Origin: Aromatoleum toluclasticum ATCC 700605 | GTDB lineage: Bacteria > Pseudomonadota > Gammaproteobacteria > Burkholderiales > Rhodocyclaceae | Length of the DNA stretch: 47,409 nt | Direction: 5' to 3' | Assembly (NCBI RefSeq): GCF_000378245.1 | Contig: NZ_KB899517.1 | Coordinates: 1-47,409, forward strand | Shown here: positions 25,812-45,885 of the stretch, piece by piece | Position numbering within the stretch: position 1 is the first letter of the stretch | Layout: the number at the start of each line of letters is the position of its first letter | Translations under genes and position numbers: made by a program | The notes under the pieces: model-generated | What the model was told of the DNA's origin: nothing | Seen by the model: only the letters and a program-made list of their open reading frames with translations | Database searches by the model: none

Positions 25812-25814
25812 GAA

Positions 25815-27685: not shown

Positions 27686-28435
27686 ATGGCAGGACGTCTG
27701 GATGGAAAGGTGGCGATCGTGACCGGCGGCGGCGCCGGCATTGGTCGAAAGTTCTGTGTCGGGCTGGCATCGGAGGGGGCGCGCGTCGTCGTCGCGGACG
27801 TGGGTGACGTGTCCGGGACGCTTGCCGAAGTCGATGCGGCGCGAGGCACCGCGACCGGCGTTCGCGCGGACGTCTCAGATCCCGCCGATGTTGCGCGTCT
27901 GGTGAGGCACGCACTCGACACCTGCGGCCGCGTTGACGTTCTCGTCAATAACGCCGGCATCTATCCGACGCGGCCGATCGAGCAGATGAGCCTCGAGGAG
28001 TGGCGCAAGGTCATGGCCGTCAATCTCGACGGCGTCTTCCTGTGTGCGAAGGAAGTCATTCCGCACATGAAGCGCCAGGGTGGCGGGCGCATCGTCAATA
28101 TGAGCTCGACGACCTTCTTCATGGGCGTGCCGAATTTCTGCCACTACGTCGCGAGCAAGGGCGGCGTGGTGGGGTTCACGCGCGGGCTTGCCGGCGAGGT
28201 CGGCGAGTTCGGCATCACGGTGAATTGCATCGCGCCAGGGCTCACGAAGACCGACAGCGTCGAGGCCTCCCCGGTGATCCGGGAGACCTGGCAGATGCTC
28301 GTCGATGCGCAGGCGATCCACCGCAAGCAGGTACCGGACGACCTGCTCGGGCCGCTGCTCTTCCTCGCGTCCGACGATTCCGCGTTCGTGACCGGCCAGA
28401 CGCTGTGCGTCGACGGCGGCTGGACGCGGCACTGA
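27686..28435 (+). CDS. Short-chain dehydrogenase, 1-phenylethanol dehydrogenase-like
   Basis: A 249-residue classical SDR that should oxidise a secondary alcohol to a ketone with NAD+. The cofactor motif GGGAGIG is near residue 14-20, NNAG near 89, and the catalytic Ser-Tyr-Lys in SSTTFFMG and CHYVASKGG. The C-terminal half (EASPVIRET, LASDDSAFVTGQTLCVDGGWTRH) closely follows (S)-1-phenylethanol dehydrogenase of Aromatoleum as I remember it, including the end in RH. It leads the operon, directly before ebdA, so it fits oxidation of the Ebd product to acetophenone or an analogue. In the known cluster ped lies after ebdD. Confidence 0.85.
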   Translation: MAGRLDGKVAIVTGGGAGIGRKFCVGLASEGARVVVADVGDVSGTLAEVDAARGTATGVRADVSDPADVARLVRHALDTCGRVDVLVNNAGIYPTRPIEQMSLEEWRKVMAVNLDGVFLCAKEVIPHMKRQGGGRIVNMSSTTFFMGVPNFCHYVASKGGVVGFTRGLAGEVGEFGITVNCIAPGLTKTDSVEASPVIRETWQMLVDAQAIHRKQVPDDLLGPLLFLASDDSAFVTGQTLCVDGGWTRH

Positions 28436-31408: not shown

Positions 31409-31438
31409 TGGTTCCCGGAACCGTCATTGGAGGCAAAC

Positions 31439-32497
31439 ATGGCTTACGTGCCAGGCGGCAGCAAGAAAGAACTGCGGAAGGCGGACCGACAACTCGCCAC
31501 GGTGATCGACCTGAACAAGTGTCTGGGTTGCCAGACCTGTTCGGTCGCCTGCAAGAATCTCTGGACCAAGCGCCCGGGGACCGAACACATGCGTTGGGCG
31601 AACGTCACGACCTATCCCGGCAAGGGCTACCCGCGCGACTACGAAAAGAAGGGCGGCGGATTCAGGGACGGCGAGCCGCAGCCGGGAAAGATCCCCTCGG
31701 TGATCGATAGCGGCGACAACTTCCAGTTCAACCACAACGAGGTGTACTACGAAGGCAAGGGCCAGAGCGTGCGGCTGCACCCGGTCAGCAACGTGACCGG
31801 CAAGGAGCCGGAGTGGGGCTACAACTGGGATGAGGACCAGGGTGGGGGCCAATGGCCCAATCCCTACTTCTTCTACTTCGCCCGCATGTGCAACCACTGC
31901 ACGAAGCCGGCCTGTCTAGAGGCCTGTCCGACCGGGGCGATCTTCAAGCGCGAGAAGGACGGCATCGTCCTCATCGACCAGGACCGCTGCAAGGGCCACC
32001 GCCACTGCGTCGAGGCCTGCCCGTACAAGGCGGTCTACTTCAACCCCGTGGCGCAGAAGAGCGAGAAATGCATCCTCTGCTTCCCGCGCATTGACAAGGG
32101 CATCGCCAACGCCTGCAACCGTCAATGCACCGGCCGTGTGCGTGCGTTCGGCTACCTCGACGATCGCGACAGCCAGGTGCACAAGTTGGTGGCCAAGTGG
32201 AAGGTCGCGCTGCCGCTGCACGCCGAGTACGGCACCGGCCCGAACGTCTTCTACGTGCCGCCGATGGGCGCACGCGGGTTCGGCTCCGATGGCGAGATCA
32301 CCGACGGCAGCCGCATTCCGCTCGACGTGCTGGAGGGCCTGTTCGGGCCGGAGGTCAGGCGGGTGCTCGACGTGCTGCGCACCGAGCGGGCAAAGATGAA
32401 GGCCGGCCAGGGTTCCGAGCTGATGGACATCCTGATCAGCAAGAAGTGGACGGACCGCTTCGGCGGCTTCACCAACGATCCGCTGACGCAATCCTGA
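31439..32497 (+). CDS. ebdB: Ethylbenzene dehydrogenase-like iron-sulfur beta subunit
   Basis: A 352-residue electron-transfer subunit, the same length as EbdB, from the ATG at 31439 behind TTGGAGG (an in-frame ATG at 31427 lacks a site). Four ferredoxin-type cysteine groups are seen: NKCLGCQTCSVACKN, MCNHCTKPACLEACP, DRCKGHRHCVEACP and SEKCILCFPR with ACNRQC. They bind one [3Fe-4S] and three [4Fe-4S] clusters in the family. It has no signal of its own and is exported with the alpha subunit. It passes electrons to the heme subunit encoded next. Confidence 0.94.
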   Translation: MAYVPGGSKKELRKADRQLATVIDLNKCLGCQTCSVACKNLWTKRPGTEHMRWANVTTYPGKGYPRDYEKKGGGFRDGEPQPGKIPSVIDSGDNFQFNHNEVYYEGKGQSVRLHPVSNVTGKEPEWGYNWDEDQGGGQWPNPYFFYFARMCNHCTKPACLEACPTGAIFKREKDGIVLIDQDRCKGHRHCVEACPYKAVYFNPVAQKSEKCILCFPRIDKGIANACNRQCTGRVRAFGYLDDRDSQVHKLVAKWKVALPLHAEYGTGPNVFYVPPMGARGFGSDGEITDGSRIPLDVLEGLFGPEVRRVLDVLRTERAKMKAGQGSELMDILISKKWTDRFGGFTNDPLTQS

Positions 32498-32516
32498 CCG
32501 CACCGGGAGACAAGAG

Positions 32517-33155
32517 ATGAAAGCGAAACGAATCGACGCGAGCAACGACGCGTTGCTCGATGCGGCCTCGCCGGTGTGGGCGGGAGCCGAGGGCGAAAGT
32601 GTGAGCATGGCGCCGACGCCGCTGATGTTGGTGAAAGAGGTGTCGCCGTTTCTTGCGCTGAGCCAGGATCACGGCGCGGTCACGAGCCTGCGGGCGGCCG
32701 CGCTGCACAACGGCGGCATGCTGGCGATCCGGCTGCAGTGGGCAGCGCCGAAGCATGATCGGATCGTCGACCTCGACTCCTTCGTCGATGGCGCGGCCGT
32801 GATGTTCCCGGTCGTGCGCGGCGCGCCGGCGGCGACGATGGGCGCACGTGGCAAGCCGACCAACGCCTGGTACTGGAAGGCGAACACGCCCGCGCCGTAT
32901 GAGGTCGTTGCCGAGGGCTTCGCATCGGTGCAGCGGCTCGCGGGCCGCAGCGACCTCAAGGCAGCGGCGCATTACCGCGACGGGCAATGGAACCTCGTGC
33001 TCGGGCGTTCGCTCGGCAAGGCCGACGGGCTGGTGAAGCTCGAGGCGGGCGGCAGCACGAAGATCGCCTTCGCGGTGTGGAGTGGCGGCAATTCCGAGCG
33101 CTCGGGGCGCAAGTCGTTCTCGGGCGAATTCGTCGATTTCGAGATTCTCAAGTGA
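32517..33155 (+). CDS. ebdC: Ethylbenzene dehydrogenase-like heme b gamma subunit
   Basis: A 212-residue subunit of the family of periplasmic heme-b gamma subunits (EbdC, DdhC, SerC type). Known members bind heme with axial Met and Lys; a Met followed by Lys (TMGARGKPTNAWYWKA) lies in the matching central region, and the C-terminal beta-sandwich ends KSFSGEFVDFEIL. There is no cleavable signal, consistent with co-export. GGGAGACAAGAG precedes the ATG. It would pass electrons to a periplasmic acceptor such as a cytochrome c not encoded here. Confidence 0.9.
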   Translation: MKAKRIDASNDALLDAASPVWAGAEGESVSMAPTPLMLVKEVSPFLALSQDHGAVTSLRAAALHNGGMLAIRLQWAAPKHDRIVDLDSFVDGAAVMFPVVRGAPAATMGARGKPTNAWYWKANTPAPYEVVAEGFASVQRLAGRSDLKAAAHYRDGQWNLVLGRSLGKADGLVKLEAGGSTKIAFAVWSGGNSERSGRKSFSGEFVDFEILK

Positions 33156-33166
33156 GCGTGGATGCC

Positions 33167-33841
33167 ATGAACAGCCCGATCGAGTTGTGTCCCCGTGACG
33201 ACCGCCGCGCGAGCGCGGCGCGGTCGCAGTTTTACAAGATCCTGAGCGGCGTTTTCAACTATCCGGCGGATGCGGCGCAGTCCGATTTCGTGCGGCGCGG
33301 TGCCGCAGAGGCGCTGCGCGATGCAGCCGCCGGGCTGCCGTTTCTCGTTCCGGCTGTCGCGATGCTGGGTGACGCGGGCGGCGGCGACGTCGTCGAGGCC
33401 GGCGACGAAGATGTCGCGCTCGCCTACACCAGTCTGTTCGACAACTGCGGCGGCCGTCCGGCGGTGCCGCTGCACGAGAAGGACTATGTGCAGCGCGACA
33501 CCAAGCAGGTGTGGGAAGAGCTGATCCGCTTCTACGAGCACTTCGGGCTCGGCTACGACCTGAAGGCGAGCGGGGAATGGCCCGATCACCTCGGCACCGA
33601 GCTCCAGTTCCTGCACTACCTGACTTTTCTCGAAACCGGCGCGCCCGACGACGCGGCCGGGACCTACGCTGCCGCGGCGGGCGACTTCCTCGAGCGGCAT
33701 CTGGCGAACTGGGTGCCGAAGTTCGCCGACAACCTCGCCGGCAAGGCGGAAGGCGCGGCCTATGTCGCGCTCGCGCAGGTTCTCGTGCAATTCGTCGCCG
33801 GTGAGGTGGAATGGAACCGCAGCCGCCGGGCGCTGCAATAG
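33167..33841 (+). CDS. ebdD: Molybdoenzyme-specific chaperone (EbdD/TorD-like)
   Basis: A 224-residue helical cytosolic protein of the TorD/NarJ/DdhD family that escorts the alpha subunit and helps molybdenum cofactor insertion before Tat export. The typical core is YTSLFDNCGGRPAVPLHEKDY around residue 92, followed by YEHFGLGYD and WPDHLGTELQFLHYL. Gene order A-B-C-D matches ebd. A GTG at 33152 that overlaps the ebdC stop is an in-frame alternative (229 residues). Confidence 0.88.
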   Translation: MNSPIELCPRDDRRASAARSQFYKILSGVFNYPADAAQSDFVRRGAAEALRDAAAGLPFLVPAVAMLGDAGGGDVVEAGDEDVALAYTSLFDNCGGRPAVPLHEKDYVQRDTKQVWEELIRFYEHFGLGYDLKASGEWPDHLGTELQFLHYLTFLETGAPDDAAGTYAAAAGDFLERHLANWVPKFADNLAGKAEGAAYVALAQVLVQFVAGEVEWNRSRRALQ

Positions 33842-33868: not shown

Positions 33869-35059
33869 GTGACGAACGTGGCAAACGACAAGATTCAGGT
33901 GATCGGCGTGGGAATGGTCAAGTTCGCCAAGCCGGGGGCTCACGAGCCCTACGAGGTCATGGCCGCGAAAGCGATCCGCGCGGCGCTGGCCGATGCCGGC
34001 ATCGACTGCGCGGACGTCGGCCAGGCGTATGCGAGTTACGTGTTCGGGGACAGCGCGTGCGGGCAGCACGCCCTCTACAAGGTCGGCATGACCGGCATCC
34101 CGGTGGTCAACGTCAACAACAACTGCTCGTCGGGCTCGTCCGCGTTGATGCTCGCGCGCCAGGCGGTGATGGCCGGCGTGGTCGATTGCGCGCTGGCCTT
34201 CGGCTTCGACGAAATGCAGCCCGGGGCGATCGCGCCCAAGTGGACCGACCGGACTGCACCGCTGCTCGAACTGGAGCGCGTGCTCGAGGATCTGGTGCCG
34301 GGCGTGGCCGAAGCCCCGAACGCGCTGCGGCTTTTCGGTTCTGCGGCGCGGGCCTATATCGACCGGAGCGGCGCCGACCCGGACATCTTCGCCAAGGTCG
34401 CGGTGAAGACGCGCAACCATGCGCTGCGCAATCCGCTGGCCATCTTCGACAAGCCGATCACCGTGGCCGAGGTGCTCGCGTCGCCCGTGATCTTCGCGCC
34501 CTACCTGACGCGCCTGGAGGCCTGCCCGCCGTCGTGCGGGGCAGCCGCGGCGGTCGTCTGCAGCGAAGCGTTCGCCCGCGCGCGGGGACTTGGCCGCGGC
34601 GTGAAGATCCGCGCCCAGGCGATGACGACGGACAGGATGGCGCGCCTGGACAACCCCATCGATCTGGCCGGCGCCGACATGACGCGCAACGCCGCGCGCC
34701 AGGTCTACGAGCAGGCCGGCATCGGCCCCGACGACATCCACGTCGTCGAACTGCACGACTGCTTCACGTCCAACGAGGTCATTACCTACGAGGGGCTCGG
34801 CCTGTGCGGGGAAGGGGAGGCCGAGCGCATGATCAATGACGCCGACAACACCTACGGCGGGAAATACGTCGTCAATCCTTCCGGCGGGCTCATGTCCAAG
34901 GGGCACCCGTTGGGGGCGACGGGGCTCGCGCAATGCACCGAGCTAGTCACGCAGTTGCGCGGGGAGGCGGGGCCTCGGCAGGTACACGGCGCGCGTCTCG
35001 CGCTCCAGCACAACCTGGGGCTGGGGGGAGCGTGCGTGGTGACCCTCTACGAGCGCTGA
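33869..35059 (+). CDS. Thiolase (SCP-x/TioL type)
   Basis: A 396-residue thiolase starting at GTG behind GGCAAGGGA. The acyl-accepting Cys86 lies in NVNNNCSSGSSA; His-containing ELHDCFTSNE and the closing GGLMSKGHPLGATG and LQHNLGLGGACVVT are typical of the SCP-x/lipid-transfer branch. Located right after ebdD, it should cleave the beta-ketoacyl-CoA made by the AcsA-like ligase, for example benzoylacetyl-CoA to benzoyl-CoA and acetyl-CoA. A gene of this type (tioL) is proposed for the p-hydroxyacetophenone pathway. Confidence 0.88.
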   Translation: MTNVANDKIQVIGVGMVKFAKPGAHEPYEVMAAKAIRAALADAGIDCADVGQAYASYVFGDSACGQHALYKVGMTGIPVVNVNNNCSSGSSALMLARQAVMAGVVDCALAFGFDEMQPGAIAPKWTDRTAPLLELERVLEDLVPGVAEAPNALRLFGSAARAYIDRSGADPDIFAKVAVKTRNHALRNPLAIFDKPITVAEVLASPVIFAPYLTRLEACPPSCGAAAAVVCSEAFARARGLGRGVKIRAQAMTTDRMARLDNPIDLAGADMTRNAARQVYEQAGIGPDDIHVVELHDCFTSNEVITYEGLGLCGEGEAERMINDADNTYGGKYVVNPSGGLMSKGHPLGATGLAQCTELVTQLRGEAGPRQVHGARLALQHNLGLGGACVVTLYER

Positions 35060-35172: not shown

Positions 35173-35199
35173 CGGGGCGCCACAGGCGCCCCGTTTTTT
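35173..35199 (+). terminator. Rho-independent terminator of the SDR-ebd-thiolase operon
   Basis: GGGGCGCC (35174-35181), loop ACA, GGCGCCCC (35185-35192), then GTTTTTT. A perfect 8-bp GC stem with a T-run 115 bp after the thiolase stop. It separates this operon from the carboxylase operon, which has its own promoter element at 35263-35342. Confidence 0.92.
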
Positions 35200-35262: not shown

Positions 35263-35342
35263 CAGCGCTGTTCTTCGCTCGGTTTCCGATTACAGAAAAT
35301 CAGGCTTTTCCGATTTTTCCTGCTTTTGCCGGCCCGTATATT
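35263..35342 (+). promoter_or_regulatory. Shared activator-type promoter element, copy 3 (carboxylase operon)
   Basis: CAGCGCT (35263-35269), TCGG (35279-35282), TTCCGATTACAGAAAATC (35284-35301), TTCCGATTTTT (35308-35318) and a -10-like TATATT (35337-35342). GATTACA and TCCGAT are 49 and 28 bp upstream of the hexamer, exactly as in copies 1 and 2, and TTCCGA repeats 24 bp apart as in copy 2. Predicted start near 35349, 69 bases before the first gene. Nothing else is seen in 35060-35417 apart from the terminator. Confidence 0.72.
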
Positions 35343-35417: not shown

Positions 35418-35906
35418 ATGGATATCGATCTCGAAGAATTGGCGACCATGGTGGGTTTGCTCAAGGACGCGGAATTTACCGAGTTCCGCTACGAAAAAGC
35501 GGACATGCGCCTGGTCATCAGCCGCGGGGCCGCGACAACGAACGACGAATCTGCTCCGGTTCGTGCTCTGGGCAAGCCTGCCGTGGCGCTGCCGTCCGCG
35601 CCGGCCGCTCAGCTTGCAAAGGTCCAGCCGACCGCCGCTGCGCCTGCTTCCCACGAGGGCGCCGAGGTCGTGCGGACCCCGTTGCTGGGAACGTTCTACG
35701 CGAGCCCGAAGCCGGGCGAGGCGCCGTTCGTGCGGGTGGGCGACCGGGTCGAGGCCAGGACCGTGCTGTGCATCGTCGAAGTCATGAAGCTGATGAATTC
35801 GGTCGAAGCAGGCTGCAGCGGCGTGGTCGTCGCGATCCACGCCGAAGACGGGCAGCTGGTCGAGTCCGGCCAAGCCTTGTTCAGCATCGTAGCGGGTGAT
35901 GCCTGA
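35418..35906 (+). CDS. Biotin carboxyl carrier protein
   Basis: A 162-residue carrier. The AccB-like N-terminal helix (MDIDLEELATMVGLLKDAEF) is followed by a Pro/Ala-rich flexible linker (about 40-80) and a biotinyl domain. The biotin-acceptor Lys124 lies in EVMKLMN, where Val replaces the usual Ala of EAMK. It carries carboxybiotin between the next two subunits. Its place in a catabolic operon, with a pyruvate-carboxylase-type transferase rather than AccAD, argues against a role in fatty-acid synthesis. It overlaps the next gene by 1 bp (TGATG). Confidence 0.93.
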   Translation: MDIDLEELATMVGLLKDAEFTEFRYEKADMRLVISRGAATTNDESAPVRALGKPAVALPSAPAAQLAKVQPTAAAPASHEGAEVVRTPLLGTFYASPKPGEAPFVRVGDRVEARTVLCIVEVMKLMNSVEAGCSGVVVAIHAEDGQLVESGQALFSIVAGDA

Positions 35907-37261
35907 TGGCGACGCAACGTGTCTTCGTCGCCAACCGCGGGGAGATCGCCCTGCGCATCATCGATGCGTGCGACCGCCTCGGCTTCGAAACGGTGCTGGG
36001 CGTGTCCGCTGCGGACCGCGACAGTCTGCCCGCGCGGCGGGCCGGCCGGGTCGTGACGCTGGGCGGCCCGCGGGCGGCGGAAAGCTACCTCAATGTCCCC
36101 GCGGTCGTGCATGCCGCGGTCGCGACCGGTTGCACGGCCATTCATCCGGGCTACGGCTTCCTGTCGGAGCGCGAGGATTTCGCCCGGCTGTGCGCCGAGA
36201 ACGGGCTGGTTTTCGTCGGTCCGCGCCCGGAACAGCTCCAGGCGCTCGGCGACAAGATCAGCGCGCGCCGGCTGGCCGAAGCGGTGGGCGTGCCGGTGTC
36301 GCCGGGCGGACCCACTACGACGGCCGCGGATGCGCTGGCGCTCGCGCGCAGGATCGGCTTCCCGGTGCTGGTGAAGGCCGCGTTCGGCGGTGGCGGGCGC
36401 GGCATGAAGCAGGTCCACGACGAGACCGGTCTGGTCGCCGCGTGGGAGCTCGCGTCATCTGAGGCCGCCGCCTCGTTCGGCGACGGCACGGTGTTCATCG
36501 AGCGCTTCGTCCAGTCGGCCAAGCACGTCGAGGTGCAGATCCTGGGCGACGCCCATGGCAACCGCATTCACCTGGCCGAACGCGAGTGCTCGCTGCAGTA
36601 CCGCTACCAGAAGATCATCGAGGAGGCGCCCTGCGTCGCGCTGTCCGACGAGGCGCGCCGGCGCCTGCACGGCTACGCATTGCGCATCGCCGACGCGCTC
36701 GACTACGTGAGCCTCGGTACGGTCGAGTTCCTGGTCGACGTCGAGCGCGGCGACATCTGCTTTCTCGAGGTGAATCCGCGCGTCCAGGTGGAGCATCCGG
36801 TGACCGAGGCGATCACCGGCGTCGATCTCGTGCGCGAGCAGCTGCTGGTCGCCTTCGGCGAGCCGTTGCGCTTGCGCCAGGACGACGTGCGCGTCGACGG
36901 CCACGCGGTCGAACTGCGTCTTACGGCGCAGGACCCGGGGCACGGACTGCGGCCTTCGCCCGGCCGGCTCACGCACTGGCGGCCGAGTCCAATCGGCGGC
37001 GTGCGCTGGGATACGCACATGTACGAGGGCTATCTCTTTCCGCCGTACTACGACGCGCTGATGGCCAAGATCATCGCGCACGGGCCGGACCGGGAGGCGG
37101 CGCTCGCGCGGGCGCGGGCGGCGATTGCCGGCTTGCAGGTGCAGGGTTGCACGACGAACCAGTCCCTGCTGCGGGAGCTGCTCGACACCCCCGAGATCAT
37201 TCACGACACCGTGACCACCCGTTGGCTCGAGGATCGTTTTGCGGAGGAGATGCAGGCATGA
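35906..37261 (+). CDS. Biotin carboxylase subunit
   Basis: A 451-residue ATP-grasp enzyme that carboxylates biotin with bicarbonate and ATP. The N-domain begins VFVANRGEIALRIIDAC. The glycine-rich lid FGGGGRGMKQV is near residue 160, and the metal and bicarbonate site EVNPRVQVEHPVTEA near residue 285. The length equals AccC. It is the energising subunit of the predicted ketone carboxylase, and its start and stop overlap both neighbours, indicating coupled translation. Similar subunits (XccABC) are proposed for p-hydroxyacetophenone in Aromatoleum. Confidence 0.94.
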   Translation: MATQRVFVANRGEIALRIIDACDRLGFETVLGVSAADRDSLPARRAGRVVTLGGPRAAESYLNVPAVVHAAVATGCTAIHPGYGFLSEREDFARLCAENGLVFVGPRPEQLQALGDKISARRLAEAVGVPVSPGGPTTTAADALALARRIGFPVLVKAAFGGGGRGMKQVHDETGLVAAWELASSEAAASFGDGTVFIERFVQSAKHVEVQILGDAHGNRIHLAERECSLQYRYQKIIEEAPCVALSDEARRRLHGYALRIADALDYVSLGTVEFLVDVERGDICFLEVNPRVQVEHPVTEAITGVDLVREQLLVAFGEPLRLRQDDVRVDGHAVELRLTAQDPGHGLRPSPGRLTHWRPSPIGGVRWDTHMYEGYLFPPYYDALMAKIIAHGPDREAALARARAAIAGLQVQGCTTNQSLLRELLDTPEIIHDTVTTRWLEDRFAEEMQA

Positions 37262-38742
37262 CCGACATACGACTGGTCGACGTGTCCTTGCGCGACGGCA
37301 ACCAGAGTCTCTGGGGAGCGGTCGGCGTCAAGACGCGCACCATGGAGCGGGTGTGCCCGGCGCTGGGTCGGGTCGGCTATCACGCGCTGGAGCTGCTGTC
37401 GAGCACGCAGGTCGCGGTGGCGGTGCGGTTTCACCGTGAGGACCCGTGGGCTCGCATCGATGCCGCGCGCCGTGCCGCTCCGCATACGACCCTCGGCTTC
37501 CTGACCACCGGCAAGCGCTTCATCAGCTTTTCGCGCACTCCGGCCAACCTGTTCCAGCTCGCCTTCGACCTGTTGCGGCGCCACGGCGTTACCCGCATGT
37601 GGATCATCGACCCGATGCACGACATGGCGTCGGCGCGCGAGACCGCGCGCATGGCCAAGCGGGCGGGCTTCGACGACGTCGTCGCTGGCATCTGCTACAC
37701 GATCAGCCCGGTGCACACGGACGATTATTTCGCCGATCGCGTCGCCGAACTCGACGACTGCGAAGCCATCGACTCCGTCTATCTCAAGGATCCGGCCGGG
37801 CTGCTCACGCCGTCGCGGCTGGAAACCCTCGTGCCGCACATGCGCCAGCGGCTCAAGCGGCTGCGCCTCGACGAGCTGCACACCCACTGCAACACGGGGC
37901 TGGCGCCGATCACCCTGCTGAGCGCCGCCGACCTCGGCATCGGCACGCTGCACTGCGCGCTGCCGCCGCTCGCCAACGGCTCGTCGCACGCATCGGCGCC
38001 GAAGCTGGTGGCCAACCTGCGTGCACGCGGCCATCGGGTGGACGTCGATCTCGCCGCGATGGAAGAGGCCTCCGCGATCCTGACCCGCGAGGCAAAGCTG
38101 CGCCGCCTGCCTTCGGGAACGCTGCAGGAATACGACGAGGGCTATTACCGCCACACGCTGCCCGGCGGCGTGATCTCCACGACGCGGCGCCAGCTTGCCG
38201 AGATGGGGAAGGCGGACCTGATGCCGGCGGTCATCGAGGAGTCGGTGCGCGTGCGCAGCGACCTCGGCTGGCCGATCGTGATGACGCCGTTCGCGCAGTA
38301 CATCGTTACCCAGGCGGCGCTCAACGTGATTGGCGGCGAGCGGTATCGCCAGCTCAGCGACGAGGTCGTCGACATGCTGATGGGCGACTGGGGTCCGATG
38401 CCGGGCCCGGTCGACGGCAATCTGCTCGACCGCGCGCACGATACGCCGCGCGCGCGCAACCGTCACCAGGATCCGGCGGCGCCGTCGCTCGACGAGCTGC
38501 GCGCGCGATTCGGCCGCGGCATTTCGGACGAGGATCTGCTGCTGCGCGCGCTGATGCCTGCCGAGCAGGTCGGCGCGATGGTCGACGAACGCGAGCGCCG
38601 GAGGGCGGGTGGAGACGGCGCGTCGCTGAAGGCGCTGGCCGAAGCCCTGAGCGATCCGCAGCGGCCGATGTCGGTGAGTTTCAGCCGGGGGGATACGTCG
38701 TTCTTCCTGCGCGGCGGCCGTTCAGCAAGGGAGGCATCATGA
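37258..38742 (+). CDS. Carboxyltransferase subunit, pyruvate carboxylase/5S type
   Basis: A 494-residue HMGL-like TIM-barrel carboxyltransferase. SLRDGNQSLWG (residues 10-20) aligns with RDAHQSL of pyruvate carboxylase and transcarboxylase 5S. The carbamylated-Lys motif is LKDPAGLLTP with Lys177, and the metal-binding HTHCNTG (208-214) keeps both His but replaces the usual DT by CN. A C-terminal PYC_OADA-like domain follows. Members transfer CO2 from biotin to the alpha-carbon of a ketone or keto acid, which fits acetophenone-like ketones. The altered active-site loops suggest a substrate other than pyruvate. It overlaps the next gene by 4 bp. Confidence 0.88.
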   Translation: MTDIRLVDVSLRDGNQSLWGAVGVKTRTMERVCPALGRVGYHALELLSSTQVAVAVRFHREDPWARIDAARRAAPHTTLGFLTTGKRFISFSRTPANLFQLAFDLLRRHGVTRMWIIDPMHDMASARETARMAKRAGFDDVVAGICYTISPVHTDDYFADRVAELDDCEAIDSVYLKDPAGLLTPSRLETLVPHMRQRLKRLRLDELHTHCNTGLAPITLLSAADLGIGTLHCALPPLANGSSHASAPKLVANLRARGHRVDVDLAAMEEASAILTREAKLRRLPSGTLQEYDEGYYRHTLPGGVISTTRRQLAEMGKADLMPAVIEESVRVRSDLGWPIVMTPFAQYIVTQAALNVIGGERYRQLSDEVVDMLMGDWGPMPGPVDGNLLDRAHDTPRARNRHQDPAAPSLDELRARFGRGISDEDLLLRALMPAEQVGAMVDERERRRAGGDGASLKALAEALSDPQRPMSVSFSRGDTSFFLRGGRSAREAS

Positions 38743-39635
38743 CGCAGGCAATGATGAGCCGGCCAGCGTCGCGCGACGCGCTGAGGGCTGTCGTCGAGGC
38801 GCGCGGCTGGGTGCTCGATGTCGATGGCTGCCTCGTGCGCACGGCCACGGCCGGCGGCACGGGCGGCGAGCCGATGCGCGGGGCGGTCGAGCTGCTGCGT
38901 TGGCTGCGCCAGCACGGGCGCGACTTCGTCGTATGTACGAACGCCTCGCAGCGTCCGGCGCGCGACTACGCGAAGCACCTGCGCGAAATCGGCCTCGACG
39001 TCGCCGACCACGAACTGATGACGGCCGCGACGGCCGCCGCCGGCTACATCGCGGCGCACCACCCCGGCGCGCGGGTGCTGACGGTCGGCGGCCCCGGGCT
39101 GGAAGACGCGTTGCGCGAGCGGCAACTGGAACTCGCCCGGCCCGGCGAGGGGCTCGCCGACGTCGTCGTGGTCGGCGCCGCCGACCTCTACACGACGGCG
39201 GTGCTCAACGCCGCATGCCTCGCCATCGCCGACAACGACGCTGCCTTCTATGTCACGGTCGATGCGCCCTGGTTCTACGGCGGGTTGCAGCGCTCGGTGT
39301 GCGCTTCGTCGGCGATCGCCGCGGCCATCGCATCGCCGACCGGACGTGAGGCCGTCGTGTGCGGCAAGCCGTCGCCGGCGATCGGCGAGGTGCTGCGCGA
39401 GCGGCTCGGCGGCGAGGGCGGCCGCATCGTCGTCGTCGGCGACGTCGCGACGATCGAAGTGCGGCTCGCCCACCAGATGGGCGCGCTGGGTGTGCTGGTG
39501 ATGAGCGGGGGCACTTCGCCCGAAGAAGTTTCTGGCCTTCAGCCCATGGACCGCCCCGACCTGCAGGTCGCAGACGTGGGGGCTCTGGTCGACCTGATGG
39601 AGGCCGTGGATGCTCGAGGAGACGACAATGACTAA
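38739..39635 (+). CDS. HAD-superfamily phosphatase (NagD/HAD-IIA type)
   Basis: A 298-residue HAD hydrolase with all four motifs: VLDVDGCLV (nucleophile Asp and acid Asp), VCTNAS, the Lys in CGKPSP, and VVGDVATIEV. The large cap between motifs II and III is of the NagD/p-nitrophenyl-phosphatase type. Embedded between a carboxylase and a phosphotransferase, with overlapping ends, it is expected to act on a phosphorylated pathway intermediate or by-product. A HAD protein (PpcD) also belongs to phenylphosphate carboxylase, but it is much smaller. Exact substrate unknown. Confidence 0.85.
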   Translation: MTQAMMSRPASRDALRAVVEARGWVLDVDGCLVRTATAGGTGGEPMRGAVELLRWLRQHGRDFVVCTNASQRPARDYAKHLREIGLDVADHELMTAATAAAGYIAAHHPGARVLTVGGPGLEDALRERQLELARPGEGLADVVVVGAADLYTTAVLNAACLAIADNDAAFYVTVDAPWFYGGLQRSVCASSAIAAAIASPTGREAVVCGKPSPAIGEVLRERLGGEGGRIVVVGDVATIEVRLAHQMGALGVLVMSGGTSPEEVSGLQPMDRPDLQVADVGALVDLMEAVDARGDDND

Positions 39636-41448
39636 GGCACGGGATCGGTTTGAATTTTTCCACGAAGCGAAAGCGCCTGCCGGTGCCGAGGGCTGGCAGC
39701 GCATGTATCCGTATTTCCTCGTCTCGCAGCCCGAAGGGCGCGCGGCGGAGGACTCCCGATTCTGGTTCGCGGATTCGATGCACTGGTCGCGCGCCGTGCA
39801 TCCGTTCGACAGCATCGGCGCCGAGGCGGTGTATTACGGCTGCGGGGTGAACAGCACGCGCGGCATCGCGTTGCCTTCGGCGCTCGGGCTGGATGTGCGC
39901 GTCGTCAACGGCTACGTCTATATTTGCCCGCTGCCGGTAACCGACTCCGCGGAGGTCGAGAAGCGCCTGGCGCTGTTCCAGGAGCGCGCAGGTTTCTACT
40001 ACAAGAACTGGGACGACCTGTACGCCCGCTGGCAGGAGAAGATGCGGGTAGCAGTCAAGCGCATGAAGGCGCTGAAGTTCGAGCCGTTGCCGGAGTTCGA
40101 GCCGCTCGAGGTGGTCACGGAAGGCAAGGGCCGCTCGACCTCCTGGGATCTGGTGGAGAACTACCACCGCCTGATCAACGACTTCTTCCTCGTCTGGCAG
40201 TACCACTTCGAGATGCTGGGCCTCGGCTACGGCGCGTATCTCGTGTTCTTCGGCTTCTGCAAGCAGGCCTTCCCCGAGATCGAGGATCAGACCATCGCGC
40301 GTATGGTCGCGGGCGTCGAGGGTATCGCGTTCCGGCCCGACGACGAGCTGCGCCGGCTCGCCAAGCTGGCGGTGGAGCTGGGGCTCGCGGATGCCTTCGA
40401 CGCGAAGGACAGTCCTGAGGAAATCTTTGCAGCGCTCGGGCGCCGCAGCGACGGCGAGCGCTGGATCGCCGCGTTCGAGGCCACGCGCGACCCCTGGTTC
40501 GACTACTTCGCCGAATACGGTTTCCTGCATGACCAGCAAACCTGGAACGGCAACCTGGAAATTCCGCTGCAGGGCATCGCCCGCTACGTGAGCCTGCTGC
40601 AGGCGGGCAAGGATATCGATCGGCCGGTGGCCCGGTTGCAGGCCGAGCAGGACGAGATCGCCGCGGAGTACCGCGCGCTGCTGACGCCCGAGGAGGCGCA
40701 GCGCTTCGACGAGGCGCTGGGGTTGTCGCGGGCCGTGTTCCCGTTCATCGAGGAGCACAACATCTACGTCGAGCACTGGTCGCACGCGGTGTTCTGGGAG
40801 AAGGTGCGCGATCTCGCCCAGGTGTTCGTCGATGCGGGCTTCTTCCAGGAAGCCGGCGACCTCTATTACCTGAACCGTTTCGAGCTCGATCAGGCGCTGT
40901 TCGACCTGGTCGAATCCTGGGGCATCGGCGTGCCCGCCCGCGGCGTGCAGCACTGGCGCACCGAAATCGCCGACCGGCGCCGCATCATGGCCGCGCTGCG
41001 CGCCGCAGCGCCCGCGCCCGCGTATGGCATTCCGCCCACGGAGGTGACCGACCCGTTCGCGATCATGAACTACGGCGTGACCACCGAACGCGTGGCCGAT
41101 TGGCTCGACCAGACGGCCGGCGGCGACAACGGCCAGATCAAGGGCATTCCCGTGTCGCCAGGCGTCGTCGAAGGCAAGGTGCGGGTCATCCGGCACGAAG
41201 ACGAGCTGAGCCAGTTGCAGACGGGAGAGATCCTCGTCGCGCAGATCACCGCCCCGTCGTGGGCGTCCGCGTTCTCGGTCGTTTCCGGGGTCGTGACCGA
41301 CATCGGCGGGATGATGAGCCACGCCGCCATCATCTGCCGCGAGTACGGCATGCCGGCGGTGGTCAGCACCGGGTTCGCCACGACACGCCTGAAGACCGGG
41401 ATGCGCGTACGCATCGACGGCCGCAAAGGCACCGTCGTCCCCCTTTAG
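39628..41448 (+). CDS. Phenylphosphate synthase-like subunit A (PEP-synthase phosphohistidine protein)
   Basis: A 606-residue protein. The C-terminal 100 residues form a PEP-utiliser mobile domain with the phosphorylated His565 in GGMMSHAAIICREYGMPAVV, preceded by GIPVSPGVVEGKVRVI. The first 480 residues carry a domain without the PEP/pyruvate barrel, matching the layout of the 70-kDa subunit of Thauera phenylphosphate synthase (conserved His near 569). The start at 39628 follows GAGGAG; an ATG at 39610 is in frame. It is expected to pass phosphate from ATP, through the His, to an enol or phenol acceptor. No phenylphosphate carboxylase genes are present, so a new acceptor is likely. Confidence 0.87.
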   Translation: MTKARDRFEFFHEAKAPAGAEGWQRMYPYFLVSQPEGRAAEDSRFWFADSMHWSRAVHPFDSIGAEAVYYGCGVNSTRGIALPSALGLDVRVVNGYVYICPLPVTDSAEVEKRLALFQERAGFYYKNWDDLYARWQEKMRVAVKRMKALKFEPLPEFEPLEVVTEGKGRSTSWDLVENYHRLINDFFLVWQYHFEMLGLGYGAYLVFFGFCKQAFPEIEDQTIARMVAGVEGIAFRPDDELRRLAKLAVELGLADAFDAKDSPEEIFAALGRRSDGERWIAAFEATRDPWFDYFAEYGFLHDQQTWNGNLEIPLQGIARYVSLLQAGKDIDRPVARLQAEQDEIAAEYRALLTPEEAQRFDEALGLSRAVFPFIEEHNIYVEHWSHAVFWEKVRDLAQVFVDAGFFQEAGDLYYLNRFELDQALFDLVESWGIGVPARGVQHWRTEIADRRRIMAALRAAAPAPAYGIPPTEVTDPFAIMNYGVTTERVADWLDQTAGGDNGQIKGIPVSPGVVEGKVRVIRHEDELSQLQTGEILVAQITAPSWASAFSVVSGVVTDIGGMMSHAAIICREYGMPAVVSTGFATTRLKTGMRVRIDGRKGTVVPL

Positions 41449-41467
41449 ATCGCGAGGAACAGACAAC

Positions 41468-42562
41468 ATGCTGACATTCGATTTCGACGACCCGCTGGCG
41501 ACTGATCACAAGCTCGTAGGCGGCAAGGGTTACGGCTTGGCGATGATGACGAGGGCCGGCATTCCGGTGTCGCCCGGCTTCACCGTGCTGACCCGGACGT
41601 ATCGGGATTACCTCGTGTCGACCGGCCTGAAGCATCGGCTGGAGTCGGCCCTCGGCCTCGTCGATCGCGCCTCCATCGACGCGCTCGACGAGCTGGCGCG
41701 AACCATCCACGCCTGGTTTCTCGATACGCCCCTGCCTCCTGGAGCACACGAGGCACTCGCGTCCGCCTACGACCGCCTGTGCGCATCCGTCGGCGTCTCC
41801 GACGTGTCGGTCGCGGTACGCTCCAGCGCGACCGCGGAGGACTCCGCCGGCGCGAGCTTCGCCGGCGAATACGAGACCTTCGTTGGCCTGCGCGGCATGG
41901 CCCAGGTCGAGCTGCACCTACGCCTGTGCTGGGCGAGCGCATTCACCGCCCGTGCGCTCAGCTACGCGTGGAAGAACGGTATCGAGCCGCTCGACGTGGA
42001 TATGGCGGTGGTCGTGCAGAAGACGGTGAATGCGCGTGCCGCCGGCGTCATGTTTACGGTGAGCCCGCTCACGGGCGACCGCTCACGCATCCAGATCGAA
42101 GCGTCATACGGGCTCGGCCTCGGCGTGGTCGGCGGCGACGTGACGCCCGACCGCTACGTCATCGCGAAGATCGAAGGGTGCGTGATCGACCGCGTGATCG
42201 GCGACAAGCACATCGAATACGTCGGCGGCCAGGTCGCCACCCCGGTCGACGCGGAACGGCGCGCGAGGCTGTGTCTGAGCGATGACGAAGTGATGACGCT
42301 GGCGCAGTTGGGCAAACGCCTGGAACGTCTCAACGGGGGGCCGCAGGACATCGAGTTCGCCATCGACAGCGACCTGCCCGCCGCCCGAAACGTCGTGCTG
42401 CTGCAATGTCGCCCGGTCACGGTCCTGCCGGCGAAGGAGGGTACGAAATCGGTGTCGGCCGACGCGCTCTCCCGCATGGCCTCCACGGTACTTGCGGCAG
42501 CCCGCGGGGGCGTGAGCGCTACTCCGTCATGCACGTCAGATCGCGCAGGAGTCGGTCGATGA
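41468..42562 (+). CDS. Phenylphosphate synthase-like subunit B (PPDK/PEPS ATP-binding protein)
   Basis: A 364-residue protein equal to the N-terminal ATP-grasp domain of PEP synthase. VGGKGYGLAMM (residues 17-27), VRSSATAEDSAGASFAGEYE (117-136, with ATP-binding Arg118), GVMFTVSPLTGDRSRI and PQDIEFA...LLQCRPVT are all typical. It would phosphorylate His565 of the upstream protein using ATP (beta-phosphate transfer in the family). The A/B split and sizes of about 68 and 39 kDa mirror PpsA/PpsB. No PpsC-like CBS-domain activator is seen. Its stop overlaps the next start (ATGA). Confidence 0.88.
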   Translation: MLTFDFDDPLATDHKLVGGKGYGLAMMTRAGIPVSPGFTVLTRTYRDYLVSTGLKHRLESALGLVDRASIDALDELARTIHAWFLDTPLPPGAHEALASAYDRLCASVGVSDVSVAVRSSATAEDSAGASFAGEYETFVGLRGMAQVELHLRLCWASAFTARALSYAWKNGIEPLDVDMAVVVQKTVNARAAGVMFTVSPLTGDRSRIQIEASYGLGLGVVGGDVTPDRYVIAKIEGCVIDRVIGDKHIEYVGGQVATPVDAERRARLCLSDDEVMTLAQLGKRLERLNGGPQDIEFAIDSDLPAARNVVLLQCRPVTVLPAKEGTKSVSADALSRMASTVLAAARGGVSATPSCTSDRAGVGR

Positions 42563-43554
42563 CACGAGTCGTCAGGTTTCACGAGTACGGCGGTCCCGAA
42601 GTGCTCAGGATCGAAGAGCTCGAGGTCGGCGAGCCGGCTGCCGGCGAGCTGCGGGTCCGGATCGAGGCGATCGGCCTGAACAGGGCGGAAGCCGGCTTTC
42701 GGTCCGGGCACTACATCGAAAAGGCCAAGCTGCCGGCGCGTCTGGGCTACGAGGCCGCGGGCGTTGTGGAGGCCCTGGGCTCGGGGGTTAGCGGCATCGA
42801 AGTCGGCGAGGCCGTGTGCGTCATCCCCGGGTTCTCGATGAACTCCTATGGCGTTTACGCCGAACGGGCGATCGTACCCGCCGCGGCGGTCGTCAGACGC
42901 CCGGCCGGCCTGACTACGGTCGAGGCGGCCGCGGTCTGGATGCCGTATCTGACGGCTTACGGCGCTCTGATCGATGCGGTCGGTGTCGGCAAGGCCGAGG
43001 TCGTCGTGATCACCGCCGCTTCGAGCAGTGTCGGGCTTGCCGCAATCCAGATCGCCAACAGCATCGGCGCCGTCCCGATCGCCGTCACGCGTACCCGGGC
43101 CAAGCGAGGGGCGCTGCTCGCGGCTGGTGCGGCGCACGTCGTCGTGAGCGCCGATCAGGACATTGCCGACGAGGTGATGCGACTCACTGAAGGACGCGGG
43201 GCGCGCATGGCGTTCGACCCGGTCGGCGGGCCCGGCGTCGTCGCCCTCGCGTCCGCGCTGGCGCCCCGGGGCACACTCGTGCTGTACGGCAACCTCGGCG
43301 GCGAAGCCGACCAGACACCTTTCCCGTTCGGTCTCGCGGTCGGCCGGGGGCTGAGCCTGCGCGGTTACCTCGTGTTCGAGGTCATCCACGACCCGGCCCG
43401 CCGCGCACGCGCCGAGTCCTTCATCCGCGAGGGGCTGCAAACCGGCGCCCTCAAGCCGACGGTCGACCGGACGTTTCCGCTCGACGACATCGTCGCGGCC
43501 CACCGTTACCTCGAGGGGAATCAGCAACTGGGCAAGGTCGTGGTCACGGTGTGA
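42559..43554 (+). CDS. Zinc-free MDR oxidoreductase (quinone reductase-like)
   Basis: A 331-residue medium-chain dehydrogenase/reductase of the quinone oxidoreductase branch, without structural-zinc cysteines. The N-terminal GroES-like domain (FHEYGGPEVL) is followed by a Rossmann fold with TAASSSVGLAAIQIAN, in which AASSSVG replaces the usual GAAGGVG. NADPH is the typical cofactor. As the last gene of the carboxylase operon, preceded by CAGGAG, it may reduce a conjugated enone or side product; nothing identifies its substrate. No clear terminator follows. Confidence 0.85.
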   Translation: MTRVVRFHEYGGPEVLRIEELEVGEPAAGELRVRIEAIGLNRAEAGFRSGHYIEKAKLPARLGYEAAGVVEALGSGVSGIEVGEAVCVIPGFSMNSYGVYAERAIVPAAAVVRRPAGLTTVEAAAVWMPYLTAYGALIDAVGVGKAEVVVITAASSSVGLAAIQIANSIGAVPIAVTRTRAKRGALLAAGAAHVVVSADQDIADEVMRLTEGRGARMAFDPVGGPGVVALASALAPRGTLVLYGNLGGEADQTPFPFGLAVGRGLSLRGYLVFEVIHDPARRARAESFIREGLQTGALKPTVDRTFPLDDIVAAHRYLEGNQQLGKVVVTV

Positions 43555-43966: not shown

Positions 43967-45736
43967 TCAACGTGCTTCAGGCATGACGTCGTATTTGCGA
44001 AGCCTGTACACCAGTTTCGCGCGGCTGATGCCCAGTACCCGGGCGGCCTGCGACAGGTTGCCGTTAGCCTCTGCGACGGCAGCCCGCAACATCGCCACCT
44101 CCGTTTCCGCCAGTCCCGAGTGTCCGAGGGCCGCGGCCGACAGCGATTCCGTTCCCCCCAGTTTGCCGACACGTCCGATGCTGCCGCTGCGCTTCAACAT
44201 GAAAGCGGTGGTATCGACTTCCTCGCCGCCGGTGAACAGATGACATAAGTCGAGCGCGCCGCCATCCTCGGCCAGGATGACCGCACGTTCTATCATGTTC
44301 TCCAGCTCTCTCACGTTGCCCGGCCAGTCGTAGGCGAACATCGCATCGACCGCGCTTTCGCGGAAGCCAGTGATATGTTTGTCGTGCCTGCGGCCCATGC
44401 GCTGGAGGAACCAGTTCATCATCAGCGGGATGTCGTCGCGGCGCTCGCGCAACGGCGGCACCTCGATCGGGAAGACGTTGAGGCGGAAAAAGAGATCCTC
44501 GCGGAACTGTCCGGCCTTGACGGCTTCGCGCAGGTTCACGTTCGTGGCGGCTACCACCCTGACGTCCACCTGGCGCGTGCGCGTATCGCCCACGCGCTCG
44601 ATCTCGCCCTGCTGCAGCGCGCGCAGCAGCTTGCCCTGCGCAGTGAAGCTCAGTGTGGCGATCTCGTCGAGAAAGAGCGTGCCGTGGTCGGCTCGCTCGA
44701 AGCGTCCGGCGCGAGACGTCGTAGCACCCGTAAATCCGCCTCGCTCGACGCCAAACAGTTCCGACTCCATCAGGTGTTCCGGAATGGACGCGCAGTTCAC
44801 CGCGACGTAGGGGCCATCTGCGCGTTTGCTCAGGCGATGCAGGTTGTTGGCGAAGACTTCCTTGCCGACGCCGCTCTCACCCAGGAACAGCACGGTAGCG
44901 TTGGTGGGCGCCACCTTGTTGACCATGTGGCAGACCGTGTTGAAGCCGGCGGAGATGCCGACCACGCCGAAGCTGTTCTCGGGTGCGCTGGTGAGCCCGG
45001 CGGCGATGCGGCTCGTGGCGGGTAATTGCTCCTCGGCTTGTGGCGCCCATTTGACGAAATCGCCGATCCGCAGGAAGCGCAGGTCATCCTGGGCGTCTTC
45101 CCATTCCTCCACCGGCTTGCCCACCACGCGGCATTTCGCGTGCCCCATCCCGCGGCATTCGGTTTCCCGCCACAGGATGGGGCGGCCCATGAAGGCGCTG
45201 GTGTAGCCGCACGCATAGCCGATCAGCATCCAGCACACCGGTTCGTTGCCGATACCGTAGCTGGCGATGTGGGCCTCCGCCTCGGAGCTGTCGACGAGAT
45301 AGAACTCGCCGAAGTAGCGGCCACGCTGGACGTCGATATCCAGCGCCACCGGCTCGCAATGCACCATGCCCTCCAGCGACACGAGTTGCGGACCGGCCAG
45401 GAAGTCGTCATAGGTATTCAGGCCGGCGCGGACCTTGCGCGCCATTGCCGCGTCTCGCGTGCCGGCCTGGTAGCCGATGCGGGTGATCAGCCCGCGTGCC
45501 GTTTCCTTGTCGAGGCTCTCGATCAGCTCCTGCCGCAGGGAGCCAAGCGAGCTGACATGCATCAGCATCATCCGCTGATCGTCAAGCCAGATGCGGCCTT
45601 GGTCGGGTGCGAAACGCAGGCGCTTGGCGAGGTCATGGAACGCCGGCACCCGAATTCCCTTGGAAGTCGCGTGGAGCTCTTGATGAGTGTGCGCGGGTGA
45701 GTCGGGCTCGGGTCCCTGGGGATGCCTTTTCGCCAT
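43967..45736 (-). CDS. Sigma-54-dependent DmpR-like activator 2
   Basis: A 589-residue regulator from the ATG at 45736 behind GAGGAAATC (an ATG at 45772 gives 601 residues). The V4R sensor keeps the DmpR-type Cys signature: EPVCWMLIGYACGYTSAFMG, then ECRGMGHAKCRVVGKP. The AAA+ domain has GESGVGKE, the sigma-54 loop GGFTGA and WPGNVRELENMIERA. The Fis-type HTH ends the protein (NLSQAARVLGISRAKLVYR). By resemblance it is a phenol or alkylphenol sensor. Possible targets are the divergent kinase promoter at 46060 and, in trans, the phenol operon promoter at 2033. Confidence 0.92.
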   Translation of the reverse strand: MAKRHPQGPEPDSPAHTHQELHATSKGIRVPAFHDLAKRLRFAPDQGRIWLDDQRMMLMHVSSLGSLRQELIESLDKETARGLITRIGYQAGTRDAAMARKVRAGLNTYDDFLAGPQLVSLEGMVHCEPVALDIDVQRGRYFGEFYLVDSSEAEAHIASYGIGNEPVCWMLIGYACGYTSAFMGRPILWRETECRGMGHAKCRVVGKPVEEWEDAQDDLRFLRIGDFVKWAPQAEEQLPATSRIAAGLTSAPENSFGVVGISAGFNTVCHMVNKVAPTNATVLFLGESGVGKEVFANNLHRLSKRADGPYVAVNCASIPEHLMESELFGVERGGFTGATTSRAGRFERADHGTLFLDEIATLSFTAQGKLLRALQQGEIERVGDTRTRQVDVRVVAATNVNLREAVKAGQFREDLFFRLNVFPIEVPPLRERRDDIPLMMNWFLQRMGRRHDKHITGFRESAVDAMFAYDWPGNVRELENMIERAVILAEDGGALDLCHLFTGGEEVDTTAFMLKRSGSIGRVGKLGGTESLSAAALGHSGLAETEVAMLRAAVAEANGNLSQAARVLGISRAKLVYRLRKYDVMPEAR

Positions 45737-45885
45737 GATTTCCTCGATCGCAGCCGCCGCGGTTGCTGGCACGGGAACTCGCCGCCGCGCATCGTGCGAA
45801 CCGGCCGGATTGGGCGATTGTTTCTAGTCAAATAATAACTAATAACGAGCCTGGCTAGCGAACTTTGTTCGAGGAAACGCCTGGG

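Follow-up and report, generated by a model that had tools for sequence, protein, structure and literature searches.

Carboxylation of phosphorylated aromatic ketones is the chemistry of the Hpe pathway, which was elucidated in 2022 for other bacteria (PMC9618137; this and the other papers are cited from the accessible parts of their text). In Rhodococcus rhodochrous GD02, HpeHI phosphorylates the phenolic hydroxyl group of 4-hydroxyacetophenone and acetovanillone, and HpeCBA carboxylates the phosphorylated ketones with the phosphate kept, the free ketones being not detectably transformed (PMC9618137). HpeD dephosphorylates the product afterwards and shows no detectable effect on carboxylase activity; the steps need no O2, and the pathway possibly originated in an anaerobe (PMC9618137). 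HpeHI is a dikinase with the essential residue His581 and the catalytic motif T/SXXGGXXXH, and acts on the phenolic hydroxyl group; it is weak on 3-hydroxyacetophenone, and activity on 2-hydroxyacetophenone was not detectable (PMC12167813). During the analysis of a 47,409-nucleotide stretch from Aromatoleum toluclasticum ATCC 700605 (NZ_KB899517.1, positions 1 to 47,409; hereafter the window), a seven-gene cassette at 35418–43554 was recognized, in which a biotin-dependent carboxylase, a phosphatase, and a two-component dikinase similar to these proteins are encoded together.

The cassette consists of seven intact open reading frames (ORFs) on the plus strand. The first encodes an HpeC-like biotin carboxyl carrier protein (BCCP, 35418–35906), which scores above the cut-off of TIGR00531 and contains the biotin Lys124 in EVMKLMN. 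It is followed by a biotin carboxylase (BC, 35906–37261; 1-bp overlap) with its motifs and the Pfam domains Biotin_carb_N, CPSase_L_D2, and Biotin_carb_C, a 5S-type carboxyltransferase (CT, 37258–38742; 4-bp overlap) with the conserved residues Arg87, Arg113, and Arg311, and an HpeD-like phosphatase of the haloacid dehalogenase (HAD) IIA type (38739–39635; 4-bp overlap) with Asp27 in DVDG. The dikinase is encoded by an HpeH/PpsA-like alpha subunit gene (39628–41448; 8-bp overlap), with the catalytic His565 in TDIGGMMSH, and, after a 19-bp gap, an HpeI/PpsB-like beta subunit gene for an ATP-grasp protein of 364 residues (41468–42562; PF01326 (PPDK_N), E 7e-92). The last ORF encodes a quinone-oxidoreductase-like reductase of the medium-chain dehydrogenase/reductase (MDR) family (42559–43554; 4-bp overlap), with 179 bits to TIGR02824, under the cut-off. 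The gene types, the overlaps of 1–8 bp, the 19-bp gap, Lys124, and His565 had been given in an earlier note made from the sequence, and all held in ORF, profile, and motif checks. The PpsA-like protein reaches 990.8 bits against NF006153 (cut-off 578), and the phosphatase matches PF13344 (E 1.3e-23) and stays under the cut-off of TIGR01460 (88.2 against 100.15 bits). The top NCBIfam match of the CT is PRK09282, pyruvate carboxylase B, and transcarboxylase 5S was also matched. Among the matches listed, BC, CT, HAD, PpsB, and MDR are all under the NCBIfam cut-offs of named housekeeping families, which is what members of a different subfamily should show.

An intrinsic terminator with a 9-pair all-GC stem and T6 (35173–35193, plus strand) is located 3' of the thiolase gene and before the BCCP gene; thus the cassette is probably a separate transcription unit. 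Scans for sigma70 promoters and terminators gave numbers under the shuffled means in the window (1 vs 1.7 and 6 vs 9.0, respectively), and only the terminator at 35173 was convincing by eye. The cassette CT was the sole match of its own genome at E 1e-50 or better, and thus no other Xcc/Hpe-type carboxylase was seen in this genome.

It is quite likely that the cassette represents a variant Hpe module acting on a hydroxyphenyl alkyl ketone, and that it belongs to one regulon with an ethylbenzene dehydrogenase (EBDH) of a second kind (EBDH2), a Ped2-like alcohol dehydrogenase, a ligase, and a thiolase for the degradation of an alkylphenol. By analogy to the homologues, for which the kinase, carboxylase, and phosphatase chemistry is established, the PpsAB-like dikinase (ATP to AMP and Pi via phospho-His565) would phosphorylate the ring hydroxyl of the ketone, and BCCP, BC, and the 5S-type CT would add CO2 at the ketone alpha carbon with the phosphate staying on the ring. 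The HAD enzyme would then take the phosphate off. EBDH2 and Ped2 would supply the hydroxyphenyl ketone from the alkylphenol, and the AcsA-like ligase and the TioL-like thiolase would release hydroxybenzoyl-CoA and acetyl-CoA. By our own reasoning, phenolate resonance disfavours the enolisation of hydroxyphenyl ketones, and the phosphate would abolish this resonance; an acetophenone without substituents would have no need of the phosphate. The earlier note had proposed that dikinase, biotin carboxylase, and phosphatase act in sequence on an aromatic ketone, which is most likely right, but it placed the phosphate on an enol, and the homologous kinase targets the phenolic ring hydroxyl (PMC9618137). 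It also had the carboxylation proceed with loss of phosphate, which disagrees with the homologous HpeCBA, whose product keeps the phosphate until it is removed later by the HAD enzyme (PMC9618137). Nor is the combination unprecedented as was supposed there, the Hpe pathway having already been published (PMC9618137, PMC12167813).

When 395 genomes of the family were surveyed, 18 contained a CT match with an E value of 1e-50 or lower. Besides the own genome, only a genome of the same genus, which we take to be that of A. aromaticum EbN1, has a CT with more than 50% identity. Its cluster A (3.41–3.45 Mb) is orthologous to the window locus, with identities of 69% for BCCP, 89% for BC, 88% for CT, 74% for HAD, 89% for PpsA, 78% for PpsB, and 91% for EbdA. 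A scan of named genomes, with loci picked by two CT peptide patterns (approximately residues 12–19 and 59–66), yielded 331 relatives; the analysis covered the best 80, so that the counts are lower bounds. The window, EbN1 cluster A, and 13 of these 80 loci, namely Eoetvoesiella caeni and twelve actinobacterial ones, constitute a subclade (CT 61–69% identical). The subclade is one group both in the CT tree (103 rows, 101 different; SH-aLRT 100) and in the PpsA tree (47 rows; SH-aLRT 94), both being quick trees without bootstrap. In the PpsA tree, three phenol-type copies, set as the outgroup, group apart from the subclade (100). The Hpe-like plasmid locus of Rhodococcus sp. JS3073, which stands in for the Hpe sequences of GD02 in all comparisons, is together with Aurantimicrobium sister to the subclade in the CT tree (83; long-branch warning), a relation that the PpsA tree does not resolve. 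The order BCCP-BC-CT-HAD-PpsA-PpsB is observed in 12 of the 13 named loci, and the other one (L066) is without PpsB at a contig end. The same six-gene order in 12 loci indicates that the gene set is not a chance assembly, and the synteny of BC, CT, HAD, PpsA, and PpsB, for which the earlier note had suggested a search, thus extends beyond this genome.

The CT proteins can be distinguished from their outgroup by several residues. Among 87 relatives (the 80 named loci, the window, two EbN1 clusters, two family loci, and two plasmid loci; two pairs are identical), Arg87, Arg311, and Thr308 are each conserved in 87/87, Arg113 in 86/87, and Thr or Ser at position 84 in 87/87. The peptide patterns used to pick the named loci exclude these positions. 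The corresponding numbers in 16 outgroup CTs are 0 for Arg87, 1 for Arg311, 1 for Arg113, and 4 for Thr308, and 11 of them have Arg at position 84, which we take to be the Arg of pyruvate carboxylase that holds the carboxylate of pyruvate. This pattern suggests that the binding of a 2-oxo acid was lost and a phosphate-binding set was gained. Arg87, Arg113, and Arg311 may thus mark carboxylases of aryl-phosphate ketones.

A 35-bp element is shared by the cassette and its neighbours. The reference copy (35284–35318, plus strand) is upstream of the cassette with the -10-like sequence CGTATATT 16 nt downstream. Further plus-strand copies precede ped-ebdABCD (27571–27605; 5/35 mismatches to the cassette copy) and the efflux/CoA-ligase operon (14276–14310; 12/35 mismatches). 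The element is found before the same three operons in EbN1 cluster A (cassette, ped-ebd, and efflux with 3, 7, and 10 mismatches), and by eye, a TATATT-like -10 sequence follows about 16–17 nt after all six copies. When the window was shuffled 20 times by mononucleotides, the best plus-strand sites had 13–17 mismatches, and therefore, the efflux copy with its 12 is supported mainly by its conserved position. No site with 13 or fewer mismatches was found in 60 kb around EbN1 cluster B, the xcc cluster, or in 58 kb of the canonical ebd-apc region. The cassette, ped-ebdABCD, and the efflux/ligase operon would thus constitute one regulon. Since the cassette shares this regulatory element with EBDH2, the alcohol dehydrogenase, the thiolase, the ligase, and the efflux genes, an alkylphenol is probably converted to the ketone by EBDH2 and Ped2.

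The candidate regulators of the element are a NarL-type response regulator and a PAS histidine kinase encoded at 25176–27386 (plus strand), with relatives of 65% and 58% identity in EbN1 cluster A; this pair perhaps controls the regulon. Two sigma54-dependent regulators of the XylR/MopR type are also encoded, at 23213–24955 (plus strand) and 43967–45772 (minus strand). In phenol sensors, a His-Trp pair anchors the hydroxyl group of the ligand (PMC10715001). This pair is present in the regulator at 23213 and in its EbN1 relative (80% identical), both without the aligned zinc cysteines, and the regulator at 43967 is without both anchor residues, so that the regulators as a whole give mixed evidence on the inducer. 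The pattern TGGC-N7-TTGCA with one mismatch allowed was matched 10 times in the window, against 9.42 expected, which is no evidence for sigma54 promoters, and the EbN1 regions gave no hit in a strict scan. Upstream of the response regulator gene, TGGCACGTGGATTGCT (25087–25102, plus strand) resembles a sigma54 promoter well, the looser pattern being at chance level in the window.

The ebdABCD genes (28475–33841, plus strand) are orthologous to those of the second EBDH of EbN1. EbdA, EbdB, EbdC, and EbdD score 2148.7, 749.4, 417.5, and 361.6 bits against NCBIfam equivalog cut-offs of 2000, 740, 400, and 360, respectively. As a correction to the earlier note, these ebd genes are closer to the second EbN1 set (EbdA 91% identical) than to the canonical one (78%). 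In EBDH2, both in the window and in EbN1, W87, H192, D223, K450, and W481 are unchanged from the canonical EbN1 enzyme; we take these to be the catalytic residues of EBDH. Substitutions near them are all towards polar residues: W200N, G201S, F204Y, F479Y, A480S, and M226T (Thr or Ser across the two copies). A478F is also common to both EBDH2 copies and was kept off this list because the canonical-like enzyme of another genome (G137; 77% identical to that of the window) has Phe as well.

The Ped2-like alcohol dehydrogenase of the short-chain dehydrogenase/reductase (SDR) family (27686–28435, plus strand) is 74% identical to its counterpart in EbN1 cluster A, against 45% for the SDR in the canonical ebd region of EbN1. 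The TioL-like thiolase (33869–35059, plus strand; Pfam thiolase) is 80% and 82% identical to the thiolases of EbN1 clusters B and A, respectively. The AcsA-like ligase (21104–23131, plus strand) belongs to the acetoacetyl-CoA synthetase family (TIGR01217, 803 bits, cut-off 520.9), is predicted to be an aryl beta-keto acid CoA ligase, and shows 78% identity to the ligase of the EbN1 p-ethylphenol cluster B and 77% to that of cluster A. The efflux-type genes for DUF1302, DUF1329, YCF48-like, and MMPL proteins (14408–21076, plus strand; Pfam) are 49–77% identical to both EbN1 clusters. A relative of the MDR reductase (79% identical) adjoins the CoA ligase in EbN1 cluster A, and a comparison of EbN1 Bal with 26 window proteins gave no meaningful match. 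Upstream, at 2083–13568, two hydroxylase genes of the phenol/toluene monooxygenase type, a ferredoxin-NAD reductase-like gene, an extradiol dioxygenase-like gene, and meta-cleavage genes represent an aerobic route beside the anaerobic one. An ORF on the minus strand at 675–2018 has a partial cytochrome P450 match (E 6.6e-24) and overlaps plus-strand ORFs.

EbN1 contains a canonical ebd set at 1.39 Mb and apc at 1.41–1.42 Mb, away from cluster A; ApcA, ApcC, and ApcE pass the NCBIfam equivalog cut-offs. Cluster B of EbN1 (about 0.19–0.21 Mb) encodes BCCP-BC-CT-HAD and corresponds to the p-ethylphenol/4-hydroxyacetophenone cluster described in PMC4630880; a 60-kb region containing it showed no match to PpsA or PpsB. 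According to PMC9618137, xcc is clustered with hpeHI homologues, a statement that cluster A would fit and cluster B does not. The gene names ppsA1, acsA1, and ebdA1 used in PMC10715001 suggest that paralogues are annotated somewhere. No paper on the second ebd/Hpe-type cluster of EbN1 turned up in the literature searched, most subscription papers being outside its scope.

The assignment to a hydroxyphenyl ketone is favoured by the ligase and the thiolase, which are 78–80% identical to their counterparts in the EbN1 p-ethylphenol cluster. Several observations weigh against it. The kinase shares only about 45% identity with the characterised type, which limits what can be deduced on its specificity, and the Arg signature of the CT is a correlation only. 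The gene order BCCP-BC-CT-HAD-PpsA-PpsB differs from hpeHICBAD, although a kinase-first order is not needed for the chemistry. The response regulator of the window is 58% identical to one in the canonical ethylbenzene region of EbN1, which fits a hydrocarbon inducer, and the sigma54-type regulator at 43967 has Val and Leu at the anchor pair with the zinc site kept. The flanks of the 13 named loci (up to 10 kb, some much shorter) had no ebd among their listed matches, so that the link to ebd comes from two Aromatoleum genomes. Three of the 13 loci include a Bal-like ligase (46–48% identical to EbN1 Bal), which weakens the type of CoA ligase as a discriminator of the substrate. Finally, the closest ApcC relative in the own genome is 37% identical and, with a score of 552.7, far under the cut-off of 1500 (ApcC alone was scored); thus no clear acetophenone carboxylase was found, which leaves room for an acetophenone role of the cassette.

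The strongest competitor, itself unlikely, is that the cassette is an ordinary Hpe module for imported 4-hydroxyacetophenone or lignin-type hydroxyketones, placed near ebd by a mobile-element accident, with the product of EBDH2 going elsewhere. Two identical inverted 1283-bp copies of an insertion sequence (IS) with a DDE transposase (C1, 3428637–3429919 and 3437595–3438877) flank the EbN1 cassette and resemble a composite transposon. The side of the ped-ebd operon on which the cassette lies also differs between the window and EbN1, and the flanks of the named relatives, with no listed ebd, are consistent with such an accident. A comparison of the window with the IS-flanked stretch of EbN1 gave only short partial matches. 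However, the 35-bp element links the cassette, ped-ebd, and efflux operons in both genomes; in EbN1, the IS pair encloses the cassette copy but not those of ped-ebd and efflux, which are just outside, yet all are conserved.

A further explanation, which we regard as improbable, is that PpsAB phosphorylates the enol form of a ketone without a phenolic group, for example acetophenone from EBDH, and that the biotin enzyme carboxylates the enol phosphate with phosphate loss. The element shared by the cassette and an EBDH 78% identical to the ethylbenzene enzyme, the distance of the nearest own-genome ApcC relative from the NCBIfam cut-off, and the flanking regulator without phenol anchors speak for it. 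However, phenolic hydroxyl groups are the targets of the characterised two-component homologues HpeHI, CreHI, and PpsAB (PMC12167813), HpeCBA keeps the phosphate during carboxylation (PMC9618137), and the regulator common to the window and EbN1 keeps the phenol anchors. By our own reasoning, biotin-bound CO2 is not needed for an enol phosphate, and since EbN1 has canonical ebd and apc besides cluster A, cluster A should not be needed for acetophenone there. The same parts as in Hpe and the supported subclade also make an enol phosphate unlikely, and it was rejected as the leading explanation. In a wider form, the EBDH2 regulon would handle a non-phenolic ketone, with PpsAB-like proteins phosphorylating its enol or another oxygen before biotin-dependent carboxylation, distinct from both Hpe and Apc; this has an equally slight chance. 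A link to canonical ethylbenzene degradation through apc was also rejected, because apc of EbN1 is away from cluster A and the nearest ApcC relative of the own genome fails the cut-off. That genome has a distant apc-like operon on C8 at about 192.4–199.3 kb (29–37% identical to EbN1 apc; small subunit 51%) and, about 23 kb from it, a distant ebd-like set at 222.7–227.8 kb (EbdA 36–37%), which possibly represent another alkylbenzene pathway.

A housekeeping role of the biotin enzyme as a pyruvate carboxylase or an oxaloacetate/methylmalonyl-type enzyme, with the Pps-like genes belonging to phenol degradation, can practically be dismissed: the top general-family matches are pyruvate carboxylase B and OadA and a PpsA paralogue is in a phenol-type setting elsewhere in the genome, but that paralogue is a separate copy at C5, the carboxylase is in fixed synteny with the kinase, and the position of the CT outside the pyruvate carboxylase/OadA group in the tree and the replacement of the outgroup Arg84 by Thr/Ser in 87/87 led us to reject a housekeeping pyruvate carboxylase.

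Beside some Xcc/Hpe-like carboxylases, PpsAB seems to be replaced by a Tm-1-like/UPF0261 ATP-binding protein, as in EbN1 cluster B (L043, 9706–10947) and other loci. In the best 80 of the 331 loci, PpsA plus PpsB is found in 37, the Tm-1-like protein (at least 50% identity) in 20, both in 0, and neither in 23, some of which are cut by contig ends. PpsAB is on the other strand in two loci (L124 and L130). Restricted to the 52 loci with at least 5.5 kb on both sides, the numbers are 29, 14, 0, and 9, and a minimum of 4 swaps between the two is needed on the CT tree. Possibly, the Tm-1-like protein is a kinase that is unrelated to PpsAB and carries out the same step. A single-component kinase, MarK, is mentioned in PMC13101465. 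A search of the own genome of the window, made without a positive control, gave no Tm-1-like match at E 1e-10. Operons with a Tm-1-like gene, a biotin carboxylase, and an HAD gene are also present on plasmids of Pseudomonas putida YC-AE1 (L153) and Sphingobium yanoikuyae YC-JY1 (L160), and the former also has DUF1302/DUF1329/YCF48/MMPL efflux genes.

If the Hpe-type assignment is correct, the second ebd cluster of a model anaerobe represents a pathway in which an alkylphenol undergoes molybdenum-dependent hydroxylation, oxidation, phosphorylation, carboxylation, dephosphorylation, and thiolysis. The combination of kinase, carboxylase, and phosphatase is itself already known, but its setting, with an element shared with the EBDH2 operon, looks new. 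A complete set of this kind would be placed in the regulon of an anaerobic degrader and would point to a possible anaerobic alkylphenol route. The use of a molybdenum hydroxylase may reflect a meta- (or ortho-) substituted alkylphenol, which is beyond the reach of flavin quinone-methide enzymes, a speculation that is more probably wrong than right.

Among the known systems, ApcABCDE resembles the window system in the ATP-dependent carboxylation of an aryl alkyl ketone, as proposed for the window. Apc is, however, a biotin-free enzyme of the hydantoinase family, and no hydantoinase A/B or acetone carboxylase gamma was among the matches listed for the cassette proteins. EBDH2 is similar to EbdABC in passing the equivalog cut-offs and keeping the presumed catalytic residues, and differs in being closest to the second EbN1 copy and in the substitutions near those residues. 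PpsABC/PpcABCD shares the kinase type, the EbN1 and own-genome phenol-type copies being 45–46% (PpsA) and 38–40% (PpsB) identical. Its carboxylase differs: that of the window is a biotin enzyme, and no UbiD-type family was among the matches listed for the cassette proteins (NCBIfam only for CT). XccABC/HacABC, the 4-hydroxyacetophenone carboxylase of EbN1 cluster B, shares the order BCCP-BC-CT-HAD, AcsA, the thiolase, the efflux genes, and a sigma54 regulator; however, the identities are not close (BCCP 38–41%, BC 52%, CT 46%), and a Tm-1-like/UPF0261 gene adjoins the carboxylase in place of PpsAB. The acvABCDEF genes of Sphingobium lignivorans SYK-6 are homologous and syntenous to hpeHICBAD (PMC13101465, PMC9618137), with an order different from the window; this likeness is taken from their description alone.

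The closest system is Hpe. The cassette of the window belongs to a separate subclade, with about 45% identity to the JS3073 kinase and 40–43% to its CT, its operon is without HpeE and HpeF, and it adjoins EBDH2 in a genus of anaerobic degraders. On the JS3073 plasmid (L152, 3993–11402), the predicted BC, CT, and BCCP are 49.5, 57.5, and 17.6 kDa (one of several possible starts each), against published masses of 49.3 for HpeB, 57.4 for HpeA, and 17.4 kDa for HpeC (PMC9618137); from this match, PMC9618137 seems to have exchanged the BC and CT labels between HpeA and HpeB. Both systems contain a two-component dikinase, a three-subunit biotin carboxylase, and an HAD phosphatase in one gene string, and the CT signature is common to the window and the Hpe-like JS3073 locus. 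The PpsA-like protein of the window is 45.5% identical to a JS3073 protein with GGIMCH and a His at position 581, as published for HpeH, and its TDIGGMMSH with His565 fits the dikinase motif T/SXXGGXXXH (PMC12167813).

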